Notes under the pieces: model-generated
Told to the model about the DNA's origin: nothing
Databases searched by the model: none
The model's input: the letters and a program-made list of their open reading frames with translations, nothing else
Source of the DNA: Microbacterium horticulturae
Lineage (GTDB): Bacteria > Actinomycetota > Actinomycetes > Actinomycetales > Microbacteriaceae
DNA: 64,000 nucleotides
NCBI RefSeq assembly: GCF_029094505.1
Contig: NZ_CP119108.1
Location: 434,001-498,000, forward strand
Direction: 5' to 3'
Position numbers and translations under genes: made by a program
Shown: positions 539 through 64,000 of the stretch, in pieces
Position numbering within the stretch: position 1 is the first letter of the stretch
Layout: the number at the start of each line of letters is the position of its first letter

Positions 539-2298
539 CCACGCCCGAGACCACCACCGCACGCCCCTGGCTCGACCCGGAGCTGCCGGTCGATGAGCGC
601 GTCGAGCTGCTGCTGGGCGAGATGACGCTCGAAGAGAAGGCGGGCCTGTTCTTCCACACCATGATCGGCGTCGCCGAGATGGATGCCGCAGACCCCGTGT
701 TCGGCATGCCCTCGGCCGTCGACCTGGTCGAGCACCGGCAGATGACGCACTTCAACCTGTTCGGCACGACCACGACAGCCCATGAGATCGCGCATTGGCA
801 CAACGAACTGCAGCGGCTCGCGGCATCCACTCGTCTCGGCATCCCCGTCACGCTGTCGACCGATCCTCGGCACTCGTTCACCGACAACCCGGGCGCCGCG
901 ATGCTCGCCGGGCCCTTCTCGCAGTGGCCTGAGCCGCTGGGGCTGGCCGCTATCGGCGACGCGGCGACGGTCGAGCGCTTCGCCGACATCGCCCGGCAGG
1001 AGTACCTCGCGGTCGGCCTGCGCGCCGCCCTGCACCCGCAGGTGGACCTGGCGACCGAGCCGCGCTGGTCGCGGCAGTCGTCGACGTTCGGCGAAGACGT
1101 CGAGCTGACCTCGCGCCTGGGTGCCGCGTACGTGCGGGGATTCCAGGGGGCGTCATTCGGCGCGGCGTCCGTCTCGACGATGACGAAGCACTTCCCGGGC
1201 GGCGGCCCGCAGAAGGACGGCGAGGACCCGCACTTCGCCCACGGCCGCGAGCAGGTGTATCCGGGCGGCGAGTTCGAGCGGCACCTGCAGCCGTTCGAGG
1301 CGCTCATCGCCGCCGGCACCCGCCAGATGATGCCGTACTACGGCATGCCGGTGGGCACCGAGTACGAAGAGGTCGGGTTCGGCTTCAACCGCTCGGTCGT
1401 CACCGGGCTGCTGCGCGAGCGCCTCGGCTTCGACGGCGTCGTGTGCACCGACTGGGGCCTCATCAGCGACGCCGAGATCTTCGGCCAGCCGTTCCCCGCG
1501 CGCGCGTGGGGTGTCGAGCATCTCTCGCCGCGTGAGCGGATGAAGAAGGTGCTGGATGCCGGAGCCGACCAGTTCGGCGGCGAAGCCTGCCCCGAGCTGC
1601 TCATCGCCCTGGTCCGCGACGGCGAGATCGACGAGGCACGACTCGACGTGTCGGCACGGCGGCTGCTGCGCGAGAAGTTCGAGCTCGGCCTTTTCGAGAA
1701 CCCGTTCGTGGACGAAGACGCCGCCGACGCCATCGTCGGCAAGCCCGAGTTCCGCGCGGCAGGCGAGGCCGCGCAGCGCGCGTCGATCACGCTGCTGACC
1801 AACCGTGATGCCGTGCTGCCGCTGCAGCGAGGGCTGCGCGTGTACGTGGAGGGGATGGATGCCGCGGCCGCCGCCGCATACGGCGAGGTCGTCTCGTGCG
1901 CCGAAGATGCGGACGTCGCGGTGCTGCGCCTGCAGGCGCCGTACGAGGAGCGCGCGACGACGTTCGAGAACTTCTTCCACTCGGGCTCATTGGAGTTCTC
2001 GGAGGACGTCATCGCGCACGTGCGCGACATCGCCTCGCGCGTGCCGACCGTGATCGACGTGTTCGCCGACCGGCCCGCAATCCTCACGCCGATCGCTGAG
2101 GTCGCCGCCGCCGTCACGGTCAACTGGGGCGCGAGTGCTGCCGCGCTGCTGGACGTGCTGGCCGGCGTCGTGCCACCGGGCGGCCGGCTGCCGTTCGACC
2201 TGCCGCGCTCGATGGCGGCGGTCGAGGCATCCCGCCCCGATGTGCCGTTCGACACCGTCGATCCGTTGTTCCGCTTCGGGCACGGGCTGACGTACTGA
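535..2298 (+). CDS. Glycoside hydrolase family 3 protein (beta-glucosidase-like)
   Basis: 587 residues, no signal peptide, so cytoplasmic. The N-terminal two-thirds is a GH3 TIM barrel: a KHFPGGGP motif around residue 218 and VVCTDW with the expected nucleophile Asp306. The remaining part is a short GH3 C-terminal alpha/beta domain ending in RFGHGLTY, a common GH3 terminus. It is shorter than typical 750-800 residue GH3 enzymes because it has no fibronectin-III-like tail. It starts inside the stop of the MFS gene, so the pair probably imports and hydrolyses one glycoside. The substrate (glucose, xylose or GlcNAc linkage) is not determined. A strong hairpin follows the gene. Confidence 0.88.
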   Translation: MTTPETTTARPWLDPELPVDERVELLLGEMTLEEKAGLFFHTMIGVAEMDAADPVFGMPSAVDLVEHRQMTHFNLFGTTTTAHEIAHWHNELQRLAASTRLGIPVTLSTDPRHSFTDNPGAAMLAGPFSQWPEPLGLAAIGDAATVERFADIARQEYLAVGLRAALHPQVDLATEPRWSRQSSTFGEDVELTSRLGAAYVRGFQGASFGAASVSTMTKHFPGGGPQKDGEDPHFAHGREQVYPGGEFERHLQPFEALIAAGTRQMMPYYGMPVGTEYEEVGFGFNRSVVTGLLRERLGFDGVVCTDWGLISDAEIFGQPFPARAWGVEHLSPRERMKKVLDAGADQFGGEACPELLIALVRDGEIDEARLDVSARRLLREKFELGLFENPFVDEDAADAIVGKPEFRAAGEAAQRASITLLTNRDAVLPLQRGLRVYVEGMDAAAAAAYGEVVSCAEDADVAVLRLQAPYEERATTFENFFHSGSLEFSEDVIAHVRDIASRVPTVIDVFADRPAILTPIAEVAAAVTVNWGASAAALLDVLAGVVPPGGRLPFDLPRSMAAVEASRPDVPFDTVDPLFRFGHGLTY

Positions 2299-2312
2299 CG
2301 CGCATCGCATGA

Positions 2313-2342
2313 CCGCCGGCGGGGCCGTGGCCCCGCCGGCGG
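2313..2342 (+). terminator. GC-rich hairpin after the GH3 gene
   Basis: A 14-base arm is repeated in perfect inverted form around a 2-nt centre, about 15 bases after the GH3 stop, and is followed by TGTTTC. It lies before the next gene's ribosome binding site, so it fits an intrinsic terminator. Confidence 0.7.
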
Positions 2343-2393
2343 TGTTTCACCCTGCCTCGAAACCGCAATCCACACCGCATCAAAGGAGATTCC

Positions 2394-3209
2394 GTGAACA
2401 CAGCATCCGTTCGTCGTACCGTCCTCGTGGGCGCTGCAGCCGTCGGCCTGATCGCCGGTCTGGCGGCCTGCGCGGGGCCCGCCGCCGAATCCGTGCCGAG
2501 CGCCGACAGCGCGCCGGTCACTATCTACCTCACCCGACACGGTGAGACCATGCTCAACGTGCTCAGCCGCGCGCAGGGATGGGCGGATTCGCCCCTGACG
2601 AAGGAGGGACAAGACATCGCCGTCGACCTCGGAGAGGGGTTGGCAGAGGGCGGCGTCACCTTCGACGCGGCGTACTCGGCCGACATGGTGCGTCAGTACA
2701 CGACCGCGACGCTCGCGCTGAAGGGTGCCGACCAGCATCTGACCCCGGTACGGGACGAGCGTCTTCGCGAGATCGACTTCGGTGGGTTCGAGGGCGCGTC
2801 GAACGACGAGATGTGGACCGCCGCCGCCAAGCGGCTCGGATACCCGAACGAGGGGGCGATGTTCGGCGATATGGGCAAGATCGGCATGGATGCCGCGCTC
2901 GACGCCATCGCAGCGTCGAACCCCGAGCCGTCGCTGCCTGCCGAGACCAGTGACGAGGTCCGCACGCGGGCGATGGCAGCGCTCGACGAGATCGGGGCCG
3001 AGGCGCAGAAGAAGGGCGAGAAGAACGTGCTCGTCGTCTCCAGCGGCATAACGATCTACGTCGCGCTCGAGGGAATGGGCGCCGACCTCAGTAAGGTCGC
3101 CACGGGCATCGACAACGCGGCTGTCAGCAAGCTCGTCTATGACGACGGCGACTGGACCGTCAAGAGCGTCAATGACCTCAGTTACGTCGAGGCGGGGCAG
3201 AAGGACTGA
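2394..3209 (+). CDS. Histidine-phosphatase (phosphoglycerate-mutase-like) lipoprotein, altered active site
   Basis: 271 residues with a GTG start preceded by AAAGGAG at 2382-2388. A lipoprotein signal ends at LAAC with Cys26, so it should be anchored outside the membrane. The core carries the RHG signature LTRHGE (Arg48, His49) and the conserved DERLREIDFGGFEG segment. Family members act on phosphate esters with a phosphohistidine intermediate. The second catalytic His, normally in a [VS]SHG motif, is Ser217 here (VVSSG). That suggests weak or lost phosphatase activity, perhaps a binding role. It stands alone between a terminator and a convergent gene. Confidence 0.85.
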   Translation: MNTASVRRTVLVGAAAVGLIAGLAACAGPAAESVPSADSAPVTIYLTRHGETMLNVLSRAQGWADSPLTKEGQDIAVDLGEGLAEGGVTFDAAYSADMVRQYTTATLALKGADQHLTPVRDERLREIDFGGFEGASNDEMWTAAAKRLGYPNEGAMFGDMGKIGMDAALDAIAASNPEPSLPAETSDEVRTRAMAALDEIGAEAQKKGEKNVLVVSSGITIYVALEGMGADLSKVATGIDNAAVSKLVYDDGDWTVKSVNDLSYVEAGQKD

Positions 3210-3237
3210 AGGCCTGGCTCAGCTGCTGCTCACCGGG

Positions 3238-3933
3238 TCATGACGCCCGGGTCGCCCACAACATCCCTCTCTCGATGATCGTGCGGACGGTGGGGTGCTT
3301 GAGCACGTCGACCGAGTGGCCCGGCGTGGCGACGACGATGCGTCCGGCTCCCCAGGTGCGTGTCCACACAGCCGGGGAGACGACGGGGCGGTGCCAGGGA
3401 TGCCATGGACGCGGCGGATGCATCGTGGTGGCCAGCACGTCGATCAGCGAGTCGTGCAGCACCCAATACTGCTCGGTCTCCAGGGTGAAGTCGTCGAGCC
3501 CCGCAGTGACGGGGTGCGTCCTGCCCGCGTCGGTGAACTCGACGGTGTGCGGCAGATAATTGTCGGTCTCGTCACCGCGGCGCAGCGACGGATCTTTGCC
3601 CGGGTGCGTCACGAACTGTCCGCCGATCAGCTGCAGGTAGGGGAGCTCGTCGCGGTACGAGTCGACGATCCCGCCGTGCCAGCCGACGAGACCGGTGCCC
3701 GCCGCGACGGCGTCGCACAGTCCCTGACAGGCCTCGTGACTGATCGACGACATCGAGACGCTCTGCACGATGAGGTCGACACTGCCCAACCGGGCACGGT
3801 CGGCATAGACCTCGCTGGAGTCGCTGATCGCCACGGTGTAGCCCTGGGCGCGGAGGTAGGGGACGAAGAGGTCGGTGGTCTCGACCGGGTGATGGCCGTC
3901 CCACCCGCCGCGGACGATCAGCGCGTCTGTCAT
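3238..3933 (-). CDS. ThuA-like domain protein
   Basis: 231 residues, no signal peptide. The sequence follows the ThuA (trehalose utilisation) family, a class-I glutamine-amidotransferase-like fold: N-terminal IVRGGWDGHHP, GLVGWHGG in the middle, a tyrosine/aspartate-rich TETEQYWVL-type stretch, and a C-terminal GAGRIVVATPGHS. The biochemical role of ThuA proteins is poorly defined, though many lie near sugar catabolism genes. The start ATG (3931-3933) overlaps the stop of the upstream esterase by 4 bp, so the two form an operon. It ends 28 bp from the convergent phosphatase gene. Confidence 0.85.
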   Translation of the reverse strand: MTDALIVRGGWDGHHPVETTDLFVPYLRAQGYTVAISDSSEVYADRARLGSVDLIVQSVSMSSISHEACQGLCDAVAAGTGLVGWHGGIVDSYRDELPYLQLIGGQFVTHPGKDPSLRRGDETDNYLPHTVEFTDAGRTHPVTAGLDDFTLETEQYWVLHDSLIDVLATTMHPPRPWHPWHRPVVSPAVWTRTWGAGRIVVATPGHSVDVLKHPTVRTIIERGMLWATRAS

Positions 3934-4589
3934 GCGAGGCGCTTGTCGAGGAAGGTGCGCACGTCGGTCAGCTCTTCCTCCGAAACGCTGTGCGTGAGAC
4001 CGGGATACACCCGCCCCGACAGGTCGCTGTGCGCGGGCAACCACTGCGCGGTGTGTTCCACGAGTTCGGGCGGGATGACGTCGTCGCGCGCGCCCCGACC
4101 CCAGAACACCGGGATGCGTGCGGCGGCCAGCTCGGCGTCCCGCGGCAGGTCGCCGGGGGCCGCGTAGCCGCTGAGGTTCACCGCGAACGCGAACCGGTCG
4201 GGTCGCAGCCGCAGCGCCTGCAGCGCGACCGAGGCGCCCTGCGAGAAGCCGAGCAGGCCGATCGTCTGCGCGTCGTCGGCTGCGGCATCCAACCACGTCA
4301 GAAAGGTGGATGCCGCGGCCGTCACCCGCGCGGGGTCCCGGCCCGCGAGCTGCACATCGACGACATCTTCGATCGGATACCAGGAGTAGCCCGGCGCCGG
4401 CCAGGGCGGAGCCAGCGGCGCCCGGATCGCCGCGCACACGAAGTCGTCGGGCAGGAACGGCGTGAGCGCGAACAGGTCCTTCTCGTCCGCGCCGTAGCCG
4501 TGCAGCAGCACCAGCAGCGGTCGGTCGGAGCGGTCGGATGCCGGAGCCGACCACAGCGCGACGTCGGGGTCGATGCGCAGCTCGTTCAT
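3930..4589 (-). CDS. Alpha/beta hydrolase, phospholipase/carboxylesterase family
   Basis: 219 residues from ATG 4589. The pattern is that of the small carboxylesterase family: LLHGYGADEKDL oxyanion region, GFSQGAS with nucleophile Ser116, a later RDDVIP region with the acid residue and LTHSV with the His. These enzymes hydrolyse short-chain esters or lysophospholipids in the cytoplasm. The start is supported by a -10-like CAGACT at 4596-4601, 6 nt upstream, with no Shine-Dalgarno, which suggests a leaderless mRNA. It is the first gene of an operon with the ThuA-like gene. The substrate is unknown. Confidence 0.87.
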   Translation of the reverse strand: MNELRIDPDVALWSAPASDRSDRPLLVLLHGYGADEKDLFALTPFLPDDFVCAAIRAPLAPPWPAPGYSWYPIEDVVDVQLAGRDPARVTAAASTFLTWLDAAADDAQTIGLLGFSQGASVALQALRLRPDRFAFAVNLSGYAAPGDLPRDAELAAARIPVFWGRGARDDVIPPELVEHTAQWLPAHSDLSGRVYPGLTHSVSEEELTDVRTFLDKRLA

Positions 4590-4595
4590 GCGCCC

Positions 4596-4601
4596 AGTCT
4601 G
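4596..4601 (-). promoter_or_regulatory. Candidate -10 box (CAGACT), leaderless start of the esterase
   Basis: On the minus strand CAGACT matches the strongest positions of an actinobacterial -10 (A2, T6) and ends 6 nt before ATG 4589. Confidence 0.4.
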
Positions 4602-4665
4602 CCAGTCGGGTGCGCGGGCGCGGAGCGGAGTGGGGCGGCTCCGGGCCGATGTCGACCGCGTGGGG

Positions 4666-4671: not shown

Positions 4672-4677
4672 AGAGGC

Positions 4678-16564: not shown

Positions 16565-17251
16565 TCACGCCGCGGCGGCCAACTCGATCACGGTGCCGTT
16601 GACCTCGGCCGCGTCCTCGTCCCAGAGGGCGACGAACCGGTCGGCCAGGGCCTGCTCGAGGCCGTCGAGGGTCTTGACGCGGAAGACGGTGGATGCCGCG
16701 GCCAGATCGGCTGCGGCATCCCGTGCCGCCTTTGCGAAACCCTGCGCGACGGCACGCATCCAGGCTTCGCTCGCGGCCTTGACCGCGGCGTAGTTCGCGC
16801 CGCCGGCCAGCGGGCGTGCCACCGCCGTGGACGAGACCATCGCCAGGCGCGCAGCCGACGAGGCCCGCAGATCGCCCTCGAACGCGCGCGTCACGAACCG
16901 CAGCGCGGTCAGCGACCGCTCGAGGACGCGGTAGTCGGCGTCGCTCTGGCCGGCCAGGCCACCCCCGCCGCGCCACCCCCCGACGAGGTGCAGCACGCCG
17001 TCGACCCGCACATCCTGGGCGTGCAGCCGCTCGGCCAGGCCGTCGACGGCCCGCTCGTCGGTCAGGTCGCACGCCTCGGTCATCCACGCGGCGTCGGCGG
17101 CGAGTCGGGCGGCCAGCTGCTCGAGCTTCACCGGGTCGTGGCCGACCGCTATCACGTTGGCTCCGGCATCCACCAGCGTCTGCGCAGCGACCAGGCCGCT
17201 GCGGCTCGTGGCGCCCGCGATCAGCACCGTGCGCCCGGTCAGATCGGTCAT
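16565..17251 (-). CDS. SDR-family oxidoreductase
   Basis: 228 residues. N-terminal cofactor motif TVLIAGATSRSGLVAA, GVLHLVGGW in place of the usual NNAG, an SS-TAVA Ser region and NYAAVKAA with the catalytic Tyr/Lys. The divergent motifs leave cofactor and substrate open. ATG 17251 has GGAGG 14 nt upstream; a GTG at 17326 would add 25 residues but reads through the repeats described separately. It follows the DUF6421-like gene on the same strand, with its own probable promoter at a 20-bp palindrome. Confidence 0.8.
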   Translation of the reverse strand: MTDLTGRTVLIAGATSRSGLVAAQTLVDAGANVIAVGHDPVKLEQLAARLAADAAWMTEACDLTDERAVDGLAERLHAQDVRVDGVLHLVGGWRGGGGLAGQSDADYRVLERSLTALRFVTRAFEGDLRASSAARLAMVSSTAVARPLAGGANYAAVKAASEAWMRAVAQGFAKAARDAAADLAAASTVFRVKTLDGLEQALADRFVALWDEDAAEVNGTVIELAAAA

Positions 17252-17268
17252 CTTGTTGTTCACTTCCT

Positions 17269-17322
17269 CCGAGTGCACATCAAACCGCCGAGTGCACATC
17301 ATCCTGCCCACCAGTTTGATGT
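17269..17322. repeat. Direct and inverted repeats upstream of the SDR gene
   Basis: CCGAGTGCACATCA occurs at 17269-17282 and 17288-17301, 19 bp apart. ACATCAAAC (17277-17285) is mirrored by GTTTGATGT (17314-17322). It lies in the 147-bp gap between the DUF6421-like and SDR genes. Confidence 0.75.
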
Positions 17323-22532: not shown

Positions 22533-23696
22533 GTGTTCCGCTCGCTCCAGTCGTATCAGATAGTGATCGACGTCATCATCGCGGTGCTGTTCGCGCTGGT
22601 GACGGCGCCGGCCGAGATCGGCGTGAACACCGCGCAGTGGTGGAGCGTGCCGATCGGCCTGCTCGCGGGCGTGGTCTTCGGCGCCGCGCTCGCGTTGCGC
22701 AGAATGGCGCCGGGGCTCGCCCTGGGCATCGCCTGGCTCGGGGCCATCGTCGAGATGACGTTCGGCCGCGTGCCGGGCCCGGCATCGCTGGCCGTGTTCG
22801 CCGTGCTCTACACCGCGGCGGCCTACGGCACGATCACGGTCTTCTGGTTCGGGTTCGGCTCGGCGATCGCCGGTGCCATCGTCGCCGTGCTGTACCTGTA
22901 CATCGCGCCGGGCAACATCGAGCTCACGATGGCAGGAGTGAGCACGGTGGTGGCGATCGTGATCGCCGCGATCTTCGCATTCCTGCTGGCTTGGACGGCC
23001 GGCGCGCTCGTGCGGGCGACCCGGCGGTCGCGCGTCGACCGGGTCGCGCAGCAGCGCGCCCGGGCCGAGGCGATCGCGGAGCAGGAGCGCACCCGTATCG
23101 CGCGAGACATGCACGACGTCGTCGCGCATTCCCTCGCGGTGGTGATCGCCCAAGCCGACGGTGCGCGGTATGCCGCGGCATCCGACCCCGCCGCCCAGTC
23201 GGCGGCCCTGGGCACCATCTCGTCCACCGCGCGCTCTGCGCTCGCCGATGTGCGTCTGCTGCTCGGGCAGCTGCGCCACAGCCAGGAAGACGGCCCGCAG
23301 CCCACGATCGCCGACCTCGACGAGCTCTTCGGTCAGATCAGAGCCGCGGGGCTCGACATCCGGGTCACGGTCGATCCGGCGCCGCGCGGCGACGTGCCCG
23401 CGGCCGTGCAGCTGGCGGTCTACCGCATTCTGCAGGAGGCCCTCACCAACGCGCTGCGCCACGGCGCCCCCGGACCCGTCGACGTCGGCCTGGCGTGGCA
23501 TCCCGCCCGCGTCGATGTCATCGTGCGCAACGCTCTGGCCGCTCCTGCGGCGCCGGGCGCACCCGGCACCGGCTCGCACGGGCACGGGCTCATCGGAATG
23601 CGCGAGCGCGCGCTGCTGGTGGGTGGCACACTGGATGCCGGAGCCGAAGCCGGCGCATTCGTGGTGCGTGCGGGCATCCCGATCGGAGGAGCCTGA
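22533..23696 (+). CDS. NarL-type sensor histidine kinase
   Basis: 387 residues from GTG 22533. Four to five hydrophobic segments fill residues 8-160 with almost no extracellular domain, so it may sense membrane state. A HisKA_3 dimerisation helix follows with RIARDMHDVVAHSLAVV (phospho-acceptor His194). The C-terminal HATPase region includes LQEALTNALRHG and GHGLIGMRERA. It autophosphorylates and hands phosphate to the response regulator, whose start overlaps its stop by one base. The signal is unknown. Confidence 0.92.
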   Translation: MFRSLQSYQIVIDVIIAVLFALVTAPAEIGVNTAQWWSVPIGLLAGVVFGAALALRRMAPGLALGIAWLGAIVEMTFGRVPGPASLAVFAVLYTAAAYGTITVFWFGFGSAIAGAIVAVLYLYIAPGNIELTMAGVSTVVAIVIAAIFAFLLAWTAGALVRATRRSRVDRVAQQRARAEAIAEQERTRIARDMHDVVAHSLAVVIAQADGARYAAASDPAAQSAALGTISSTARSALADVRLLLGQLRHSQEDGPQPTIADLDELFGQIRAAGLDIRVTVDPAPRGDVPAAVQLAVYRILQEALTNALRHGAPGPVDVGLAWHPARVDVIVRNALAAPAAPGAPGTGSHGHGLIGMRERALLVGGTLDAGAEAGAFVVRAGIPIGGA

Positions 23697-24334
23697 TGAT
23701 CCGCGTGGTGCTGGCCGACGACCAGGCGTTGTTTCGTGCCGGCATTCGGATGGTGATCGATTCTCAGCCCGACCTCGAGGTCGTCGGCGAGGCGGCCGAT
23801 GGGCGCGAGGCGGTCGACGTCGTGCGCGCGACGCAGCCCGACGTGGTGCTCATGGACATCCGCATGCCCACGATGGACGGCCTCACCGCCACCGCCGAGC
23901 TGCTGCGCGACGACGACGCGCCGCGCATCGTCATGCTCACCACTTTCGACCTCGACGAGGCGGCCGCGCGGGCGATCCGCCAGGGGGCGAGCGGCTTTCT
24001 GCTCAAGGACGCCGACCCCGAGTTCCTCCTGGCGGCGATCCGCACCGTGCATGCGGGCTCGGCCGTGATCGCGGCATCCGCCACCCGCGAGCTGTTCGCA
24101 CAGACGATGGATGCCGCGACCAAGCCGGTGCCGCCGTCGTTCGACGACCTCACCGAGCGCGAGAAGCAGATCTTCGCGCTCGCGGCGCGCGGGCTCTCGA
24201 ATGCGGAGATCGCGGCGCGCGAGTACCTCTCCGAGGCGACGGTGAAGACGCACATCAGCCGGATCCTCACCAAGCTCGCGCTGCGCGACCGCGTGCAGCT
24301 GGTCGTGTTCGCGTTCGAGCACGGCCTGGCCTGA
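23696..24334 (+). CDS. NarL/LuxR-type response regulator
   Basis: 212 residues. Receiver domain with the acidic pair Asp8/Asp9 and phospho-acceptor Asp54 in VVLMDIRMP, and a conserved Lys in FLLKDA. C-terminal LuxR helix-turn-helix: LTEREKQIFALAARGLSNAEIAAREYLSEATVKTHISRI. It is the DNA-binding partner of the kinase immediately upstream (TGATG overlap). Targets are not evident. Confidence 0.94.
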   Translation: MIRVVLADDQALFRAGIRMVIDSQPDLEVVGEAADGREAVDVVRATQPDVVLMDIRMPTMDGLTATAELLRDDDAPRIVMLTTFDLDEAAARAIRQGASGFLLKDADPEFLLAAIRTVHAGSAVIAASATRELFAQTMDAATKPVPPSFDDLTEREKQIFALAARGLSNAEIAAREYLSEATVKTHISRILTKLALRDRVQLVVFAFEHGLA

Positions 24335-32664: not shown

Positions 32665-32687
32665 GGATGCCGCAAGCCGCGGCATCC
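32665..32687. repeat. Inverted pair of the abundant 9-mer
   Basis: GGATGCCGC (32665-32673) and GCGGCATCC (32679-32687) form a hairpin with a 5-nt loop just beyond the DUF624 stop. Confidence 0.7.
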
Positions 32688-38775: not shown

Positions 38776-41078
38776 AGTTCACCGATGGCTACTGGCTGAC
38801 CAAGCCGACCCTCACACCGCTGTACGCGGTCGAGGTCGATGACATCCGCATCGACGAGACCGCGGGCACCTTGACCGTGTACGCGCCCACCGCGAAGATC
38901 CGCGACCGGGGCGACACGCTGAACCGCCCGATGCTGACCGTGCAGTTCTCGTCGCCCGCGCCCGGGGTGGTCAAGGTTCACCTCGACCATCACGCCGGCG
39001 GCGTGCATCCCGGTCCCGACTTCACCGTGCACGACGAGCCCGGATACCGCCCGACGCTGCGCGTGGACGACGAATACGGCGTGCTCGAGGCGGGGCCGCT
39101 CAGCGTGCGGGTGGCGCGCTCGGGCGCGTGGCAGGTCGACTTCGTCGAGGAGGGCGGTCGGGTGCTCACCCGCTCGCTGCCGCGGTCGATCGGCCACATG
39201 ACCGGAACAGGTGAGCTGCGCACCCCCATCGCCCCGACGTGGGTGCATCAGCAGCTGAGCATCGAGCCCGGCGAGCGCATCTACGGGCTCGGTGAGCGGT
39301 TCGGTGCCTTCGTGAAGAACGGGCAGACCGTCGACAGCTGGAACGAAGACGGCGGCACCTCCAGCGAGCAGTCGTACAAGAACGTGCCGTTCTACGTCTC
39401 CAGCCGCGGCTACGGCGTGTTCGTCGACGACCCGGGGCGCGTCTCGTTCGAGGTCGGCAGCGAAGTCAACTCGCGCGTGCAGTTCTCGGTGCCGGGGGAG
39501 GAGCTCGACTACTACGTCATCGCCGGGCCCGAGCCCAAAGACGTGCTGCGCCGCTACACCGCGCTGACCGGGCGCCCCGCGCGCGTGCCGGCGTGGTCGT
39601 TCGGCCTGTGGCTTACGACCTCATTCACCGCGAGCTATGACGAGAAGACCGTCACCGGCTTCATCGAGGGCATGGCCGAGCGCCACCTGCCGCTGAGCGT
39701 GTTCCACTTCGACTGCTTCTGGATGCGCGAGTACCAGTGGGTCGACTTCACCTGGGACGAGCGGGCGTTCCCCGACCCCGACGGGCAGCTGCGCCGCCTG
39801 CACGAACGCGGGCTCAAGGTCTCGGCCTGGATCAACCCCTACATCGCGCAGCGCTCGCCGCTGTTCGCCGAGGCGGCCTCGAAGGGCTACCTGCTGCGCC
39901 GCACCGACGGCAGCGTCTGGCAGTGGGACATGTGGCAGGCCGGCATGGGCATCGTCGACTTCACCAACCCCGAGGCGGCCGACTGGTACGTCGCGCACCT
40001 CGAACGGCTCATGGAGCAGGGCGTCGACAGCTTCAAGACCGACTTCGGTGAGCGCATCCCCGTCGAGGGCGTGGCCTGGCACGACGGCTCAGACCCCGAG
40101 CGCATGCACAACTACTATCCGTGGCTGTACAACGAGACCGTGTTCCGCGCGCTCGAGCGTCGTCGGGGCGCCGGTGACGCGGTCGTCTTCGCCCGGTCGG
40201 CGACCGCCGGCACGCAGCAGTTCCCCGTGCACTGGGGCGGCGACAGCGACTCGACCTTCCTGTCGATGGCCGAGACCCTGCGCGGCGGCCTGTCGCTGGC
40301 GATGAGCGGCTTCGGCTATTGGAGCCACGACATCGGCGGCTTCGAGGGCACCCCCGATGCGGGCCTGTTCAAGCGCTGGGTGGCATTCGGACTGCTTTCT
40401 TCGCACTCGCGCCTGCACGGCTCGTCATCACTGCGTGTGCCGTGGGAGTTCGACGAGGAGGCCGTCGAGGTCACCCGCCTGTTCACGAACCTGAAGCTCC
40501 GCCTCATGCCGTACCTGGCCCGGGTCGCCGAAGAGGCGCACACCGACGGCATCCCGATGATGCGACCGATGGTGCTGGAGTTCCCGGACGACCGCTCGGG
40601 CTTCGACGCCGACACGCAGTACATGCTCGGCGACGCGCTGCTGGTGGCTCCTGTCTTCGACGCCGACGGTCACGCCGAGTACTACGTGCCCGAGGGTGAG
40701 TGGGCGTCGCTCCTGCACGGCGATGTGGCGAGTGGATGCCGCTGGCTGACTGAGACGCACGGCTACGACTCCCTCCCGCTGCGGGTACGCCCCGGTACGG
40801 TGCTGCCGTGGGGTGCGGTCGACGACCGGCCCGACTATGAGTGGGCCGACGGCGTCACGCTGCGCTGCTTCGCGCTGCCCGACGGGTTCGATCAGACGAT
40901 CACCGTGCCCGGGTACGAAGGCCCGGCGACCACCTTCCGCGTGTGCCGCACCGGCGAGACCATCACCGCCACCACCGACGATGCGCGCGCCGCCTGGTCG
41001 CTGCAGGTCGGCGAGAAGACCGTGTCGGCCCCCGTCGCCGGCGAACTGACGATCACGATCCAGGAGAGCGCCCGATGA
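38772..41078 (+). CDS. yicI: Glycoside hydrolase family 31 alpha-xylosidase (YicI-like)
   Basis: 768 residues, the size of E. coli YicI (772). Nucleophile Asp424 in SFKTDFGE and acid/base Asp491 in HWGGDSDS, with LSVFHFDCFWMREYQWVDFTWD and SGFGYWSHDIGGF in the active-site region. This subgroup hydrolyses alpha-1,6-linked xylose from isoprimeverose units of xyloglucan oligosaccharides. No signal peptide. Coupled at both ends: GTGA with GH42, ATGA with GH3 (41075-41078). It is the strongest pointer to xyloglucan as the locus substrate. Confidence 0.92.
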   Translation: MKFTDGYWLTKPTLTPLYAVEVDDIRIDETAGTLTVYAPTAKIRDRGDTLNRPMLTVQFSSPAPGVVKVHLDHHAGGVHPGPDFTVHDEPGYRPTLRVDDEYGVLEAGPLSVRVARSGAWQVDFVEEGGRVLTRSLPRSIGHMTGTGELRTPIAPTWVHQQLSIEPGERIYGLGERFGAFVKNGQTVDSWNEDGGTSSEQSYKNVPFYVSSRGYGVFVDDPGRVSFEVGSEVNSRVQFSVPGEELDYYVIAGPEPKDVLRRYTALTGRPARVPAWSFGLWLTTSFTASYDEKTVTGFIEGMAERHLPLSVFHFDCFWMREYQWVDFTWDERAFPDPDGQLRRLHERGLKVSAWINPYIAQRSPLFAEAASKGYLLRRTDGSVWQWDMWQAGMGIVDFTNPEAADWYVAHLERLMEQGVDSFKTDFGERIPVEGVAWHDGSDPERMHNYYPWLYNETVFRALERRRGAGDAVVFARSATAGTQQFPVHWGGDSDSTFLSMAETLRGGLSLAMSGFGYWSHDIGGFEGTPDAGLFKRWVAFGLLSSHSRLHGSSSLRVPWEFDEEAVEVTRLFTNLKLRLMPYLARVAEEAHTDGIPMMRPMVLEFPDDRSGFDADTQYMLGDALLVAPVFDADGHAEYYVPEGEWASLLHGDVASGCRWLTETHGYDSLPLRVRPGTVLPWGAVDDRPDYEWADGVTLRCFALPDGFDQTITVPGYEGPATTFRVCRTGETITATTDDARAAWSLQVGEKTVSAPVAGELTITIQESAR

Positions 41079-43576
41079 CCGACGAACTGTTCCGCGACAT
41101 CCACGCCCCGCTGCCCGACCGTGCCCGCGACCTGTTGGGCAGGCTCTCGCCTGACGAGCGCATCGCCATGCTGCACCAGAGGCAGCCAGCGATCGAACGG
41201 CTCGGCATGGCCGAGTTCCACACCGGCTGTGAGGCGCTGCACGGCGTCGCCTGGCTCGGCCGCGCCACCGTGTTCCCGCAGCCGGTCGGCATGGCCGCGA
41301 CCTGGAACACCGAACTGCTGCGTCGCATCGGCGATGTGACCGGCACCGAGGTGCGCGCCAAGCACGCCGAGAACCCGCTGGTGAGCCTGAACGTGTGGGC
41401 GCCGGTGGTCAACACGCTGCGTCACCCGGGATGGGGCCGCAACGAAGAGGGCTACAGCGAAGACCCGCACGTCACCGCGCACTTCGGCGCGGCCTACGCG
41501 CGCGGCATGCGCGGCGACCACGAGCGGGTGTGGAAGACCGTGCCGACGCTCAAGCACTTCCTCGCCTACGACAACGAGACCGACCGGTCGACCACGTCGT
41601 CCGAGATGTCGCTGCGCACCCTGCACGAAGAAGAGCTGGCAGCCTTCCGCGAGCCGCTCGAGACGCAGGCCGCAGGCGCGATCATGCTCGCGTACAACCG
41701 GGTCAACGGCATCCCCGCCCACACCCAGCCCGAACTGGTGGGCGAGGCGCGCACGTGGAGTGACGAGTCGATCGCCGTCGTGTCGGATGCCGGGGCGCCG
41801 ACCTTCGTCGTGTCGCTGCAGCACGCGCAGCCCGACCACGCGCACGGCGCGGCTGCGCTCATCCGTGGCGGGATGGACTCGTTCACCGACCACGACGCCG
41901 ACGCGAACCCGACGATCACACACGTGCGCGAGGCGCTCGAGCAGGGGCTGCTGACGACCGACGACATCGACCAGGCCGTGCTGCGCCTGCTCGAGCTGCG
42001 GCTGCGCACGGGCGAGTTCGACGGGGCCGACGACCCCTTCGGCACGATCGGTGCCGACGCGATCGACGCGCCCGGAGCCCGCGACCTGGCCCGCGAGGCC
42101 GTCGCCCGCTCGGTCGTCGTGCTGCGCAACGACGCCGCGGTGCTGCCGCTGGCCGAGCCCACGCGTGTCGCGGTGGTGGGACCCATGGCCGACGCCGTGC
42201 TCACCGACTGGTACGCGGGCACCCCGCCGTACTCCGTCGGCATCGCGCAGGGCTTCGCCGACCGGTATCCGCACGCGCAGGTGACCACGGTGACCGGTGC
42301 CGACACCGTCGTGCTGACGGCGCCCGACGGCGGCTACGTCGCCGCGAACGCCGACGGCTCGGTCGTCGACACCTCGGGGACCACAGCGGATGCCGCTTCC
42401 CTCTGGGACGTCACGGACTGGGGCGACGGCATCCTGACCCTCCGTTCACAGGCGAGCGACAAGCTGCTCACCGGGGGCACCTGGCCGATGCACGCCGATG
42501 CCGACCGCGTCGGCGGCTGGGTCGTGCAGGAGAGCTTCCGCGCCCACGTGCACACCGACGGCAGCTGGTCGCTGCTGCACATCGGCTCGGGGCGTTGGGT
42601 GCGGGTGGCCCTCGGCGGCGGGCTGCTGCTGGCCGAGGCGCGTACGGTCGCCGACGCCACCCGCTTCGGCGTGCGCGTGGTGCGCTCGGGCGCGCAGGCG
42701 GTGGCGGATGCCGCGGCCGCAGCCGACGCCGTGATCGTCGCTGTCGGCAACGACCCGCACCTGTCGGGCCGCGAGACCGAAGACCGCCCGCACCTGTATC
42801 TGCCGGCGTCGGCGGTGAGTGTGTGGCGGGCGGCGCGCGAGGCCAACCCGCGCAGCGTGCTGACGATCGTCTCGAGTTTTCCGTACGTGCTCGGCCCCGG
42901 CGTCGCCGAAGCCGAGACCGTCGTGTGGACAAGCCACGGTGGGCAGGAGCTCGGCCACGGCGTCGCCGACGTGCTCAGCGGCGACCGCGAGCCCGAGGGG
43001 CGTTTGGCCCAGTCGTGGCCGGCCGACCCCGCCCAGGCCGGCGACCTGTTCGACTACGACACGCTGCGCCAGCAGGCCACCTACCGGCACCAGCCCGCGC
43101 CGTACGCCTTCGCGTTCGGGCACGGGCTGGGATATACGACCGTGGAATACGAGTCGGTGACGGTGGATGCCGCGTCCGTCGATGCGCCCGCGCCGACGCT
43201 GCGGCATCCCCTGTTCGCGCCGCGGGGCGACGAGCAGGTGGTCACCGCGACCGTGCGCCTGCGGAACACGGGGTCGCGCGCGGCCGAGGAGCTCGTGCAG
43301 CTCTACTCGGTGTCCTCGGGCTTCGGCATCCCGACCCCGCGGCGCCTGCTCGTCGCCTACGAGCGCGTGCGGCTCGAGCCCGGTGAGGCCCGTGACGTGT
43401 CGCTGCGGTTCGCCGTCGAGCGGCTCGCCGTGTGGGACGACGCTGCGCGGGTTTCGGGAGCGGTTGATGACGGGCTGCACGCCGGCGCGCTGCGCGTACA
43501 GCCCGGCACGTACCGCCTCGCGGCCGGCCCGTCGGCCGACGCGCTGCCGGTCTCGGTGGACCTGACCGTGCGCTGA
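41075..43576 (+). CDS. Glycoside hydrolase family 3 protein with beta-trefoil-like insert
   Basis: 833 residues. GH3 barrel with TLKHFLAYDNE and VVSDAGAP (Asp238 expected nucleophile; the usual Trp or Cys after it is Ala), then an alpha/beta domain with GNDPHLSGRETEDR and a C-terminal fibronectin-III-like domain. Residues of about 414-528 interrupt the alpha/beta domain with a Trp-rich, repeat-like stretch (TLRSQASDKLLTGG, WSLLHIGSGRWVRVALGG) resembling a fascin/beta-trefoil module, perhaps sugar-binding. Cytoplasmic. Probably a beta-glucosidase or beta-xylosidase finishing the oligosaccharides. Last gene of the operon. Confidence 0.9.
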   Translation: MTDELFRDIHAPLPDRARDLLGRLSPDERIAMLHQRQPAIERLGMAEFHTGCEALHGVAWLGRATVFPQPVGMAATWNTELLRRIGDVTGTEVRAKHAENPLVSLNVWAPVVNTLRHPGWGRNEEGYSEDPHVTAHFGAAYARGMRGDHERVWKTVPTLKHFLAYDNETDRSTTSSEMSLRTLHEEELAAFREPLETQAAGAIMLAYNRVNGIPAHTQPELVGEARTWSDESIAVVSDAGAPTFVVSLQHAQPDHAHGAAALIRGGMDSFTDHDADANPTITHVREALEQGLLTTDDIDQAVLRLLELRLRTGEFDGADDPFGTIGADAIDAPGARDLAREAVARSVVVLRNDAAVLPLAEPTRVAVVGPMADAVLTDWYAGTPPYSVGIAQGFADRYPHAQVTTVTGADTVVLTAPDGGYVAANADGSVVDTSGTTADAASLWDVTDWGDGILTLRSQASDKLLTGGTWPMHADADRVGGWVVQESFRAHVHTDGSWSLLHIGSGRWVRVALGGGLLLAEARTVADATRFGVRVVRSGAQAVADAAAAADAVIVAVGNDPHLSGRETEDRPHLYLPASAVSVWRAAREANPRSVLTIVSSFPYVLGPGVAEAETVVWTSHGGQELGHGVADVLSGDREPEGRLAQSWPADPAQAGDLFDYDTLRQQATYRHQPAPYAFAFGHGLGYTTVEYESVTVDAASVDAPAPTLRHPLFAPRGDEQVVTATVRLRNTGSRAAEELVQLYSVSSGFGIPTPRRLLVAYERVRLEPGEARDVSLRFAVERLAVWDDAARVSGAVDDGLHAGALRVQPGTYRLAAGPSADALPVSVDLTVR

Positions 43577-55093: not shown

Positions 55094-55300
55094 AAGCCCA
55101 CCGTAGCGATTCGAGGGTCCGGGCCGCCGGAGTTATCCACAGGCAGGATGCCGCGGCCCACAGCATCCACTTCTCTCCGAGACCGGCGCTGGAGAGATAT
55201 GCGTTTGCCGCTGCGATTCGCATGCGCGAGCGTGAAAAACGACAGCGCGAGCGATGTCGACCGCAGCCGCGCCGCATCCCGCGCGGAACCCGCGCCTGAC

Positions 55301-60606: not shown

Positions 60607-60612
60607 GCGACA

Positions 60613-60667
60613 AGCGTCGGCGACCCCGCTTTCACGCCGCTGTCGTGGCGCTGTCGTGCGCTGTCGT
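60613..60667 (-). promoter_or_regulatory. Exporter promoter with three phased heptamers (SARP-type)
   Basis: On the minus strand ACGACAGC occurs three times (plus-strand positions 60660-60667, 60650-60657, 60639-60646), spaced 10 and 11 bp. The nearest copy sits where a -35 box would be for the -10-like GACGCT at 60618-60613. Confidence 0.6.
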
Positions 60668-60688
60668 CACCTTTCGCGAGCCGACGCC

Positions 60689-61555
60689 CTACCGCTCGAA
60701 CAGGGTCGTGCTGGGTTTCGGGGAGGGGCGGGCCGCGGCATCCAGCACCGGCCCCAGCGATCCCGCGAACTCGTCGATCTCGCGCCCCTGCGCCACCTTC
60801 GCGGGGTGCGGGCCCGCGGCCATCAGCCGCGGCAGCCACTGCGTGGGCAACGGCGCCGCCGACGCCGCGATCACGAGGTTGCCGAAGCGGCGCCCTTTGA
60901 GCGTCTGCACCTCGGCGAGCACGATGACATGCTCGAGCACGGCGCGCACGGTCGCGACCTGCTGGCGCGCGAAGGCGAGCCCGGCGCCGTCGGCGACGTT
61001 CACCAGCAGCACACCCTCGGCGTTCAGCAGAGTGGATGCCGCCCGGTAGAACTCCACGGTCGTCAGATGCGCGGGCGTCTGGGCGCCGGCGTAGACGTCC
61101 GACACGACGAGGTCGACGGCGCCGGTCAGCGCCGGAGGCAGCCGAGTCAGGCCCTCACGGGCGTCGCCGATGCGCACGCGGATGCCGGCGTTCTTCGGCA
61201 GCGGCAGGTGCTCGCGCACGAGGTCCCACAGCGCCGGCTCGAGCTCGATGACCTGCTGGCGCGACCCCGGGCGGGTCTGGGCGATGTAGCGGGGGATCGT
61301 CAGCGCCCCCGCCCCGAGGTGCACGGCGGTCAGAGGCTGGCCGGGCAGGCGCAGCTGATCGATGACCGCGCCCATGCGCGCGACGTACTCGAAGTGCAGG
61401 TGGGTCGGGTCGTCAAGGTCGACGTGCGACTGCGGCGTCTCGCCGACCATGAGCTCGAAGCCCGTCGTGTAGGGGCTCGGCACGACCCGGGCGAGGGTGC
61501 CGTCCGACAGACGTGTCTGCGGCGCATCGTCGTCGCGCTGTCGGTTCCGGCCCAC
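60689..61555 (-). CDS. Spermidine-synthase-like SAM-dependent protein
   Basis: 288 residues. Rossmann methyltransferase-type fold: LTAVHLGAGALTIPRYIAQTRPGSRQQVIELEPALWDLV, then DLVVSDVYAGAQTP. It resembles spermidine-synthase-like proteins of actinobacteria, many of which lack polyamine synthase activity; the acidic motif GGGDG is replaced by HLGAG. GTG 61555 has TACCCT 6 nt upstream (61562-61567). 83 bp upstream of the exporter operon on the same strand; a functional link is not evident. Confidence 0.8.
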   Translation of the reverse strand: MGRNRQRDDDAPQTRLSDGTLARVVPSPYTTGFELMVGETPQSHVDLDDPTHLHFEYVARMGAVIDQLRLPGQPLTAVHLGAGALTIPRYIAQTRPGSRQQVIELEPALWDLVREHLPLPKNAGIRVRIGDAREGLTRLPPALTGAVDLVVSDVYAGAQTPAHLTTVEFYRAASTLLNAEGVLLVNVADGAGLAFARQQVATVRAVLEHVIVLAEVQTLKGRRFGNLVIAASAAPLPTQWLPRLMAAGPHPAKVAQGREIDEFAGSLGPVLDAAARPSPKPSTTLFER

Positions 61556-61561
61556 GCGCCC

Positions 61562-61567
61562 AGGGTA
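61562..61567 (-). promoter_or_regulatory. Candidate -10 box (TACCCT), leaderless start
   Basis: It ends 6 nt before GTG 61555 on the minus strand. Confidence 0.45.
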
Positions 61568-61610
61568 GCGGGCGGGCCATGGCGCTCGCCGCAGAGTGGC
61601 GGTCGGTGCC

Positions 61611-61633
61611 GGATGCCGCGGCCCGCGGCATCC
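61611..61633. repeat. Inverted pair of the abundant 9-mer
   Basis: GGATGCCGC (61611-61619) and GCGGCATCC (61625-61633) with a 5-nt loop, in the divergent gap 61556-61713; same geometry as 32665-32687. Confidence 0.75.
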
Positions 61634-61700
61634 ACCCGTCGTCCGGAATCTCCACCCGCGTCTCCACCTCGGGGTGGGGGGACGCCGGCGGCGGGGCGCC

Positions 61701-61706
61701 GAGACT
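61701..61706 (+). promoter_or_regulatory. Candidate -10 box (GAGACT), leaderless start
   Basis: It ends 7 nt before ATG 61714; same hexamer as at 51695-51700. Confidence 0.35.
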
Positions 61707-61713
61707 TTCGAGT

Positions 61714-62223
61714 ATGGACCTGGAGACCTTCATCGACATTGTGCTGGGCATCGCCATCATCTGCTGGATCGGCTACCGGCAGACCACGTGGCGCCCGGTC
61801 TCGACCGGTTCGATGTACCGGATGAGTCTGATCCTCGCGGTGGTCGGCGTGGTGCTCGGCGCGTCGTCGCTGGCGGCGATGAACGGGCTCGACCTGGCCG
61901 TGCTCGTGGCCGAACTGGTCATCTCGCTCGCGATCGGGGCGTGGATCGGCGCGCTGGCGCGATTTCGCCGGCTCGATCCGCCGGTGTCTGTCGGGCGCCG
62001 CGGCACGGTCGCCGATCACGAGTCGCGCACCGGCTGGTGGGGCCTGCTGCTGTGGCTGTCGCTGATCGCGGTGCGCGTGGGGATGGATGTCGCCGCCACC
62101 GCGATCGGTGCCCGCGTGGCGACGACCGCCGGGGTGATCCTGTTGCTGCTGGCCGCGAACCGGGCCGCGCGCACCGCGATGATCGCCCATCGGGTCGAGC
62201 GGCTGCGCCTCGTGGCGGCATGA
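61714..62223 (+). CDS. Membrane protein of unknown function
   Basis: 169 residues with four to five hydrophobic segments: TFIDIVLGIAIICWIGY, MSLILAVVGVVLGASSLAA, LDLAVLVAELVISLAIGAWIGALA, LLLWLSLIAVRVGMDVAATAIG, TAGVILLLLAANRAAR. I recognise no family. It starts at ATG 61714 with GAGACT 7 nt upstream. Located 60 bp before a two-component system on the same strand and possibly co-transcribed with it, in which case it could be a membrane partner of the kinase. Confidence 0.72.
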   Translation: MDLETFIDIVLGIAIICWIGYRQTTWRPVSTGSMYRMSLILAVVGVVLGASSLAAMNGLDLAVLVAELVISLAIGAWIGALARFRRLDPPVSVGRRGTVADHESRTGWWGLLLWLSLIAVRVGMDVAATAIGARVATTAGVILLLLAANRAARTAMIAHRVERLRLVAA

Positions 62224-62283
62224 GCCGCACCGCGTCAGGGCATGAGCCCGACTGCGTCACTCGAGATGCGTGAGGATGGAGTC

Positions 62284-63447
62284 ATGAACGCGCGTGGCGG
62301 AGCGCTGTCGCTGGCCCTGAACCTCGTCGGCGCGGTGCTTGTCGCCTGGTGGCTGTTCGGGATCGCCCGTGACGATCTGGCCGGCTGGGCGGCGACCGTG
62401 GCCGGCATCGCCGTGCTGGCCTGGGGTGCCCGGGCTGTCTGCGCCTTCGCCGGCGCGCCGCGTACGGCCGTCGTGCTGACCGCGCTGGCGGTCGCTGCGG
62501 GCGCACTGGCGGCGGCGCCGACCGAGGGCACCTCGGTGATTCCTGCGGCGGTGTGTCTGCTCGCTCTCGTCGGCGATGAGAGGTGCTCGCCGCTGGCCGC
62601 GGTCGGCGCGACGGTGGCTGCGATCGGCGTGGCGGCCGTCGGCGTCGTGCTCGCCCCGGTGGAGCTGCCGGTCGTGCTGACCATCTTCGGCGTGCTCGTG
62701 ATCTGCTGTCTCGGAGGGCTCGGCCGGCGCCAGGCCCAGGTGGCTGCGACTCAGGCGCGCCTGCTGCACGAGCAGGAGGTCGCTGCGCGGGAGGAATCCG
62801 GTCGGATCGCGATAGCCCGCGATCTCCACGACGTACTCGCCCACAGCCTGGGCGGTCTGGTCATCCAGCTCGACGCCGTCGACGCACTGTTGGAGGCGGG
62901 GGATGCCGCGGCCGCCCGCTCGCGGGTCGTCTCGGCCCGTGACCTCGCCGCAGCAGGCCTCGACGAAGCGCGGCGTGCGGTCGGGGCGCTGCGCGAACCG
63001 CGCACTCCGAGTGAAGCGCCCGTGCCGCCAGAGCGGCTGGCGGCGGCCCTGGCCGAGCTCATGCGCACCCACGTGTCGCTCGGCGGGCAGGCGTCGTGGC
63101 AGGAGGCCGGGCGCGGTGCGACCGTTTCGACCGCCACCGCGGCCGCCCTGACGCACGCGCTGCAAGAGGCGCTGAGCAACGCGCGCCGGCATGCGCCGGG
63201 CACACCCGTCGACGCACAACTGCGCTGGAACGACGGGCAGGTGCGCCTGACGGTGCGCAACCCACTCGTCGCGGGGACGGTGGCCGGCGCCGGATATGGC
63301 ATCGTCGGGATGCGCGAGCGCTTCGCCGGGCTGCCCGCACCGGGCGGCGTGGACGCCGGCGCACACGACGGGATGTTCACCGTGACCGCATATGCCGAGG
63401 TGCCGCCCGCTTCTGAGGGCACGAGAGGGGAGCACGAGGATGGGTGA
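62284..63447 (+). CDS. NarL-type sensor histidine kinase
   Basis: 387 residues from ATG 62284 (GGAG 5-6 nt upstream). Five to six hydrophobic segments in residues 5-145, then a HisKA_3 helix with IAIARDLHDVLAHSLGGLVIQLDAVD (phospho-acceptor His182) and a HATPase domain (LQEALSNARRHAPG, GYGIVGMRERF). Same plan and length as the kinase at 22533, but not a close copy. It phosphorylates the regulator encoded next, whose start overlaps its stop by 8 bp. The signal is unknown. Confidence 0.92.
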   Translation: MNARGGALSLALNLVGAVLVAWWLFGIARDDLAGWAATVAGIAVLAWGARAVCAFAGAPRTAVVLTALAVAAGALAAAPTEGTSVIPAAVCLLALVGDERCSPLAAVGATVAAIGVAAVGVVLAPVELPVVLTIFGVLVICCLGGLGRRQAQVAATQARLLHEQEVAAREESGRIAIARDLHDVLAHSLGGLVIQLDAVDALLEAGDAAAARSRVVSARDLAAAGLDEARRAVGALREPRTPSEAPVPPERLAAALAELMRTHVSLGGQASWQEAGRGATVSTATAAALTHALQEALSNARRHAPGTPVDAQLRWNDGQVRLTVRNPLVAGTVAGAGYGIVGMRERFAGLPAPGGVDAGAHDGMFTVTAYAEVPPASEGTRGEHEDG

Positions 63448-64000
63448 CGGTCCGATCCGGGTGCTGGTCGCCGACGACCAGGCCATCGTGCGCGACGGAC
63501 TGGTCACGGTGCTCGGCCTGCTTCCGGATGTCGACGTCGTCGGCGCCGCGGCCGACGGCGAGGAAGCCGTCGCCCTCGCCGTATCGCAGAAGCCGGACGT
63601 CGTCCTGATGGACTTGCGGATGCCGCGCTTGGATGGTGCGGCCGCGACCGCGCGGATCGCCGCCGATGTGCCGACCGCCGCCGTCCTGGTGCTGACCACC
63701 TACGCCGACGATGTGTCGATCTCGGCGGCTCTTCGCACCGGCGCGAAGGGCTACCTGACGAAGGATGCCGGCCGGGCGGAACTCGCCGCCGCGGTGCGCG
63801 CCACGGCGGCCGGACAATCGACGTTCGGCGCAGACATCGGCGTCAAGGTCATCGGAGCCGTCACGGCGGCGGCTGCGGCATCCATCCCCGCCACGCCCTC
63901 CGCCGCGCTCGCACGCCGCTTTCCGCAGCTCACGCCGCGCGAGGCGGACGTGCTCGCGCTGATGGCGGACGGTCATGGAAACGCCGAGATCGCGGCAGCG
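63440..64000 (+). CDS. NarL/LuxR-type response regulator (3' end outside window)
   Basis: 187 residues visible. Receiver domain with Asp12/Asp13, phospho-acceptor Asp58 in VVLMDLRMP and Lys in GYLTKDAG; a linker of about 35 residues; then the beginning of a LuxR helix-turn-helix (LTPREADVLALMADGHGNAEIAAA), cut by the window edge. Partner of the preceding kinase; ATG 63440 lies within the kinase reading frame (8-bp overlap) with GAGGGGAGCACGAGG upstream. Confidence 0.92.
   Translation, partial: MGDGPIRVLVADDQAIVRDGLVTVLGLLPDVDVVGAAADGEEAVALAVSQKPDVVLMDLRMPRLDGAAATARIAADVPTAAVLVLTTYADDVSISAALRTGAKGYLTKDAGRAELAAAVRATAAGQSTFGADIGVKVIGAVTAAAAASIPATPSAALARRFPQLTPREADVLALMADGHGNAEIAAA

Follow-up and report, generated by a model that had tools for sequence, protein, structure and literature searches.

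An overabundant nine-base word

The stretch analysed here, called the window, covers 64,000 nucleotides (bases 434001-498000) of the single 3,645,982-bp contig of Microbacterium horticulturae (genome G000 of our survey). Throughout its called genes and the gaps between them recurs one nine-base word, GGATGCCGC, which a first-pass annotation had likened to a DNA uptake sequence (DUS). An exact scan finds 70 copies, 40 on the plus and 30 on the minus strand, the first at 681 and the last at 63875-63883, where zero-order composition predicts 1.8. The annotation had counted about 65 (37 and 28) against about 2 by chance, so the excess is real and stronger than claimed. The word is the commonest 9-mer of the window and ranks first among the 2,520 nine-mers of equal composition; the next two are its own overlapping shifts (46 and 41 copies) and the first independent one has 25 copies, which answers the earlier worry that words of like composition might be equally frequent. 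Over the whole 3.65-Mb genome there are 2,512 copies, 1,257 forward and 1,255 reverse, or about one per 1.45 kb, and the same word read backwards, taken as a control, occurs 29 and 39 times.

Genic copies mostly read Asp-Ala-Ala or Ala-Ala-Ser. Such peptides are common in high-GC proteins, and the word could be imagined as a by-product of codon, dipeptide or compositional bias. We attach next to no credence to this explanation. In the window, GCA makes up 8.3% of Ala codons and GAT 19.8% of Asp codons, in line with the earlier remark that a rare Ala codon makes codon bias a poor cause. For a codon-aware null, the window and 20 further stretches (464 kb; 420 genes from a simple codon-based caller, 88% coding) had synonymous codons shuffled inside each gene in 100 rounds. 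The sample holds 346 copies (279 genic, 63 intergenic, 4 at gene edges); shuffling yields 36.2 +/- 5.6 genic copies with a maximum of 53, and 3.8 intergenic copies are expected, an enrichment of about 8-fold for genic and 17-fold for intergenic copies. A codon-aware model, the outcome named beforehand as fatal to the observation, thus fails to account for the count and refutes the compositional reading. The excess score of GGATGCCGC is the highest of all 9-mers in both compartments. Outside the family, 184 genomes belonging to 19 families of the same order were surveyed for this one word and none is comparable, the densest seen having 154 copies in 2.1 Mb.

Placement within the window is 58 copies in called genes, 11 intergenic and 1 at a gene edge, with 4,959 of the 64,000 bp non-coding. 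The first-pass figure was about 14 intergenic copies; the intergenic surplus drawn from it stands (1.14/kb versus 0.68/kb in genes over the 464 kb). A restriction-modification or methylation recognition site would also be a short fixed word with species variants; modification sites, however, are not expected to be so enriched, in genes or between them, and we regard this alternative as very unlikely.

Flanking preferences in G000 are weak: G at -6, -5 and -3, T at -1 and GGCC at +9 to +12 (counted from 0), giving the extended form GGnGnT-GGATGCCGC-GGCC, which is nearly unchanged when intergenic copies are taken alone. Appreciable conservation reaches about 6 bases beyond the core on the upstream side and 4 on the downstream side, and all six frame-and-strand classes of genes hold copies. 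Both facts weigh against a dispersed mobile repeat of the repetitive extragenic palindromic or miniature inverted-repeat transposable element type, to which the inverted pairs formed by some copies might point; with no conserved unit beyond the core and copies largely genic, we rejected this scarcely believable alternative. Variants differing by one base are also in excess (735 copies versus 488 expected in 504 kb): C6T is enriched 2.6-fold, C7T 3.0-fold, any change at position 8 2.1- to 4.7-fold and any change at position 9 2.5- to 4.3-fold, and changes at positions 1-5 exceed 1.4-fold for rare words only (10, 7 and 5 copies). C7T and G8A are CpG transitions, and their excess is expected if copies decay by mutation, which covers the variant pattern in part.

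Orientation and distribution along the chromosome

To assess polarity, the 21 stretches were assigned to the two halves of the chromosome, divided at its midpoint, base 1 being the presumed origin; GC skew is for the most part positive over the first half and negative over the second. First-half stretches carry 110 plus and 105 minus copies, second-half stretches 67 and 64, which sums to 174 copies one way and 172 the other relative to replication. There is neither the co-orientation of Chi nor the terminus orientation of FtsK-orienting polar sequences (KOPS); a KOPS-type word is rejected on these numbers, and the first-pass argument from missing strand bias holds for replication direction as well as for the whole genome.

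A Chi-like hotspot, at which the word would halt degradation by a helicase-nuclease of the RecBCD/AdnAB type and load RecA, shares several traits with GGATGCCGC. Chi words are abundant and short, vary from one bacterial group to another and are found in resident DNA; GGATGCCGC is abundant and family-specific, has lineage variants, and is scarce in two lower-GC stretches and four phages. We nevertheless consider it improbable, given the missing co-orientation and the convergent pairs favoured in G000, which bring no gain to a directional Chi; according to the available portions of PMC3630211, Chi and the uptake sequence are moreover distinct in H. influenzae.

Copies stand at 1.03/kb up to 600 kb from base 1 and at about half that density, 0.54/kb, more than 1.2 Mb away, when the two sparse stretches, with 1 and 4 copies per 20 kb, are excluded (rho -0.73, p 3e-4, against distance from base 1; all 21 stretches: rho -0.39, p 0.079). 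This excess near base 1, together with the genome-wide spread, the higher intergenic density and the convergent pairs, could also fit a chromosome-architecture or regulatory site for a nucleoid protein, including abundant words such as cyanobacterial HIP1. HIP1 is palindromic; GGATGCCGC, equally a very abundant short word, is not, though its CGGATCCG dialect (see below) is. A protein that organises the whole chromosome is hardly expected to recognise different words in species of the same genus, most copies are genic, and positions in lepA and leuS are only partly common between genera; we judge a nucleoid site unlikely.

Neighbouring copies up to 60 bp apart in G000 are convergent in 16 cases, divergent in 2 and same-direction in 5 (n = 23), and the convergent bias persists for pairs wholly inside genes (11 versus 2). 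The pairs of the window are listed with all copies in Table 1. Intergenic density in G000 is highest between convergent genes (2.04/kb, versus 1.2 between tandem and 0.89 between divergent genes), which is consistent with the use of some copies in terminators.

Table 1. Exact copies of the word in the window and closely spaced pairs among them
Feature	Extent	Strand	Starts or location	Remark
Plus copies of GGATGCCGC, n = 40	681..63626	+	681, 1857, 2888, 4308, 6835, 7866, 15991, 16691, 18155, 20169, 22496, 24109, 24470, 25328, 27312, 28365, 32665, 33547, 35581, 38175, 40734, 42388, 42706, 43165, 44910, 45114, 46583, 48626, 50985, 51418, 55146, 55798, 58096, 58315, 58738, 60148, 61034, 61611, 62901, 63618	exact scan
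Minus copies (GCGGCATCC on the plus strand), n = 30	820..63883	-	820, 4282, 7453, 13481, 16713, 19392, 22344, 23175, 24071, 24346, 25499, 26043, 27745, 32679, 34994, 35816, 38551, 43201, 45301, 47669, 48564, 51642, 52497, 53079, 56255, 56663, 58466, 60735, 61625, 63875	exact scan
Convergent (head-to-head) pair, spacing 14	32665..32687		intergenic, between convergently called genes	stem-loop capable; terminator-like position
Convergent pair, spacing 14	61611..61633		within called gene 61579-62223	near gene start
Convergent pair, spacing 22	16691..16721		within called gene 16565-17278 (minus)	
Convergent pair, spacing 36	43165..43209		within called gene 41075-43576	
Divergent pair, spacing 26	4282..4316		within called gene 3930-4589 (minus)	
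Divergent pair, spacing 38	24071..24117		within called gene 23696-24334	
Intergenic copies, n = 11			22496, 24346, 24470, 25499, 32665, 32679, 48564, 50985, 52497, 55146 (55146..55154, +), 58738	
Gene-edge copy			48626	

Dialects in the Microbacteriaceae

The motif is shared within the family, as the word itself or as dialects of it. Counts of GGATGCCGC range from 5 to 2,858 in 299 family genomes, and the six genomes of the genus of G000 (g1) carry 2,512, 1,436, 138, 1,856, 1,743 and 646 copies. In the member with only 138 (G164) the top 7-mer is CGGATCC (coding 299 versus 74.0 expected, intergenic 50 versus 13.1), as it is in G034 of another genus (150 versus 33.1 and 19 versus 8.1). The form GCGGATCCG occurs 1,315 times in G164, 1,230, 1,356 and 1,264 times in three g35 genomes and 939 times in G151 (g6), versus 1 to 671 times in the remaining 194 of 199 genomes; these five are low in GGATGCCGC, with 138, 150, 150, 148 and 63 copies. 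The CGGATCCG dialect thereby spans three genera. One genome, G126, bears two dialects at once (1,277 GGATGCCGC and 671 GCGGATCCG). The base preceding GGATGCCG is most often T in G000 (190 of 561) and most commonly C in samples of G142, G102, G106, G001 and G063, which defines the CGGATGCCG dialect.

Further forms appeared around the tad genes of named organisms (the best 80 of 449 TadA relatives, 75 of the 80 labelled Microbacterium, with identity to the G000 TadA up to 79%). Of these loci, at most 21 kb each, 60 have the GGATGCC form, 4 CGGATCC (M. sp. 8M, Au-Mic1, M. azadirachtae and Pcu381_bin15), 1 GGATGCTG (M. sp. AG1240) and 1 CGGAACC (M. mitrae); 14 fall below the assignment thresholds, among them M. 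sp. 18062, which prefers GGATGCGG (17 versus 2.4). Whole genomes agree: M. mitrae has 1,457 and 1,460 copies of TGGTTCCG on the two strands (2,917, versus 105-130 in five others) and AG1240 has 607 and 563 of GGATGCTGC (1,170, versus 41-462 in five others). The words CGGATGCCG, CGGATCCG and CGGAACCA share the frame CGGA-x-CC, and those of AG1240 and 18062 each depart from GGATGCCG by a single base. At least four dialects are well supported; the weaker words CGATCCGC and CGCAGGATC of G051 and G087 may tentatively be added. No other dialect of this kind was found in 60 kb each of G014 (among the words listed for it), G016 and G050, and no such word in 100 kb each of G024, G010, G013 and G059.

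Two records deserve mention in passing. G285 is low in GGATGCCGC (240 copies in 4.8 Mb), and the record labelled Planococcus sp. APC 4015 (L230), with 71% GC, a Microbacterium-like TadA (75%) and 32 copies of GGATGCCG in 21 kb, is probably a mislabelled Microbacterium.

Uptake machinery and receptor candidates

Com genes had been proposed as a check on the uptake reading, and G000 encodes both ComEA (SLBB and HhH domains) and ComEC (Competence and Lactamase_B). In all 14 comEC loci read, a comEA-like gene adjoins or lies within about 6 kb; an alignment of ComEA from 14 genomes has one common plan, in which nothing distinguished the CGGATCC genomes by eye. In G285 (C1:2981383-2982173) comEC is split into two adjacent matches, which looks like a frameshift.

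Two tad loci are present in G000. One (L188) holds tadA, tadB, tadC, a small Flp-like gene, TadE, a TadF-like gene and a TadE/G-like gene (Pfam Tad), the Flp-like and TadF-like genes being putative assignments made by reading, with no Pfam match. The other (L189) holds tadA, a single T2SSF gene taken as a fused tadB/C, a small Flp-like protein (Pfam DUF4244) and TadE. Micrococcus luteus offers a parallel: in the available portions of PMC4322843, tad-1 and tad-2 are both required for transformation and comEA/EC are shown beside them. G000 is equipped alike: besides comEA/comEC it has two tad loci, of which one combines fused TadB/C with a small Flp and the other has TadE/F. The pairing of our loci with tad-1 and tad-2 of M. 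luteus is made by resemblance. Unlike M. luteus as described there, G000 also carries a type IV pilus operon (L125), and the term 'uptake sequence' does not occur in that paper.

We asked which pilus accompanies the word, calling a genome motif-rich at GGATGCCGC >= 150/Mb or GCGGATCCG >= 200/Mb. A tad-1 TadA (E <= 1e-80) is present in 33 of 36 motif-rich genomes versus 19 of 44 others (Fisher p 4.6e-6) among 80 hand-picked genomes that are not phylogenetically independent; counted by genus, presence and absence are 18/3 among the rich and 13/12 among the poor (p 0.026), and with 200/Mb for both words 32/2 versus 20/26 (genus 18/2 versus 13/13). N_methyl pilins show no association (20 of 33 rich versus 15 of 34 poor, p 0.22) and were not found in the motif-rich G142, G280, G106, G215, G258, G057, G126 and G060. 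On both counts, the missing association and the failure to find such pilins in several of the motif-richest genomes, a type IV minor pilin is rejected as the general receptor.

Covariation was examined in Microbacterium tad-1 loci by comparing pilin divergence with that predicted by tadA-C. In genomes that have switched dialect, the controls TadB and TadC are not markedly more diverged than predicted (z -1.4 to 0). The minor pilins of M. mitrae are over-diverged (E -4.6, F -4.7, G -2.3), as are the pilins of G164 (flp -4.7, E -2.3, F -1.9, G -2.8), and the other CGGATCC genomes deviate weakly (G -1.3 to -1.75, F -0.5 to -1.3, E 0 to +1). The tad-1 minor pilins (TadE/F/G-like) are thus suggested as the leading receptor candidates, no more.

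A probable DNA uptake sequence

Taking these observations together, we consider it likely that GGATGCCGC is a DNA uptake sequence, a putative self-address placed about once per 1.45 kb; the reader is probably on a pilus. It is above all the dialects between genera and species that support this reading, and the uptake interpretation of the first-pass annotation is borne out in most of its sequence features, the function being putative and the depletion from foreign DNA mixed.

By most of the sequence criteria tested, the system appears to work as the DUS of Neisseriaceae do. In the portions of Frye et al. 2013 (PMC3630211) available, DUS are the commonest repeat (about 1,900 in 2.2-2.3 Mb), have dialects, sometimes two per genome, and form inverted pairs at terminators; their dyad arrangements hint at dimer recognition, and one-off copies outnumber exact ones. 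The likenesses here are a commonest repeat at about 1 per kb, inverted pairs, some of them at terminator-like positions, family dialects, two of them in one genome (G126), and one-off copies in larger number than exact ones. The word differs, as does the host, a Gram-positive member of the Actinobacteria. Unlike ComP-read DUS, moreover, there is no general receptor of the ComP type, as several motif-rich genomes yielded no N_methyl type IV pilins; since the type IV pilin requirement was tested and did not hold in motif-rich relatives, we do not file the system with the ComP-read one of Neisseria.

Flanking bases in the uptake signal sequences (USS) of Pasteurellaceae are A/T-rich. GGATGCCGC resembles USS in its 9-bp core and its dense, genome-wide occurrence, and is unlike them in flanks that are G-rich upstream and GGCC downstream.

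We hypothesize that a surface receptor on the competence pilus would bind free word-bearing DNA in either orientation, that the pilus would draw this DNA to ComEA/ComEC, where one strand would be imported, and that RecA would recombine the imported strand into the chromosome. The pilus that carries the reader would be the Flp pilus of tad-1/tad-2, not the type IV one. Because word-bearing fragments would be imported more often, copies born by mutation would spread and be kept at permissive sites, and the word would accumulate where DNA has long been resident but not in newly acquired islands. As the receptor drifts, a genome could slowly swap one dialect for another.

Foreign DNA can be set beside this scheme. 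Four Microbacterium phages (147.6 kb) have 4 copies of GGATGCCGC, versus about 102 at G000 density. The sparse low-GC stretches of G000 parallel the integrated elements that, in the available portions of Hughes-Games et al. (PMC7371117), were found by atypical DUS distribution. A plasmid search with one of them (L078, G000:C1:3260001-3280000; a single copy in its 20 kb) gave one small match only, 134 bp at 80.6% identity to an adenine methyltransferase gene carried by an Arthrobacter plasmid.

Several findings weigh against an uptake sequence read by a Flp pilus. ComEC is found in 80 of 80 family genomes searched, motif or not, which rules out its presence as the cause of rich and poor genomes, and the T2SSE ATPase in 55 of 55. 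The motif-rich G043, G155 and G151 are without tad-1 TadA, and the streamlined G010, G013 and G059 have it with no such motif in the 100 kb of each; besides being hand-picked and non-independent, the association sample may count as 'poor' some genomes that speak unknown dialects. Minor pilin genes of tad-1 were not found after tadC in the motif-rich G106 and G109 (3.8-3.9 kb read), nor was the flp-tadE-F-G part in the stretch read of G106 (L191), G109 (L196) and G016 (L203), nor minor pilins in 10 of the 80 named loci, four of which end no more than about 2 kb from tadA. Two one-base dialects come without minor-pilin deviation, which leaves the covariation suggestive only. The head-to-head bias, present in G000 and G142 (7 versus 2), is missing in 8 of 10 genomes. 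Finally, in the phage Efeko (L167), expected to be foreign, the top 7-mer is the core GGATGCC (19 versus 3.5), in copies whose flanks are other than those of the host word. A second Efeko word, CGGTCTC (26 versus 6.4), is frequent in G102 as well (37 versus 15.5), and the phage may therefore track host words.

To our knowledge, uptake sequences are established in two Gram-negative families only, and among the open-licence PubMed Central papers listed, no title or start of an abstract reports one from actinobacteria. Ten of 181 such papers that contain the letters of the word were listed and, judged by the same parts, have no bearing on it. It is possible, and we put it forward tentatively as something we would not yet bet on, that the Microbacteriaceae have a dialect-switching uptake system whose reader is the Tad/Flp competence pilus instead of a type IV minor pilin, with words (CGGATGCCG, CGGATCCG, GGATGCTGC and TGGTTCCG) that change even between congeneric species. 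It would be the first such system of a Gram-positive phylum, and the convergent pairs suggest that its receptor would have two-fold symmetry. Co-living Microbacterium species would then be partly isolated genetically because each reads its own word. If true, a further case in Actinobacteria would mean that the trait evolves repeatedly, and the dialects would form a rich natural experiment on molecular drive versus selection; Flp pili would become possible sequence-reading uptake devices, and tagged DNA a practical route to transform Microbacteriaceae.

Other repeated words

A few unrelated words came to light in the same samples. G050 (L118-L120) has a longer dispersed intergenic repeat of the CTTCGACAGGCTCAG type, about 15 copies in 60 kb, and the intergenic DNA of G063 has GCCTGTCGA 6 times versus 0.1 expected. 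Words around CTACAGCCCTACAG and GAGACCTAC are frequent in G142 (L081-L085). In a 55-kb intergenic sample of G000 itself, AGGTCGTAC occurs 17 times versus 0.34 and ATTCATATG 13 times versus 0.07; these are perhaps regulator sites.

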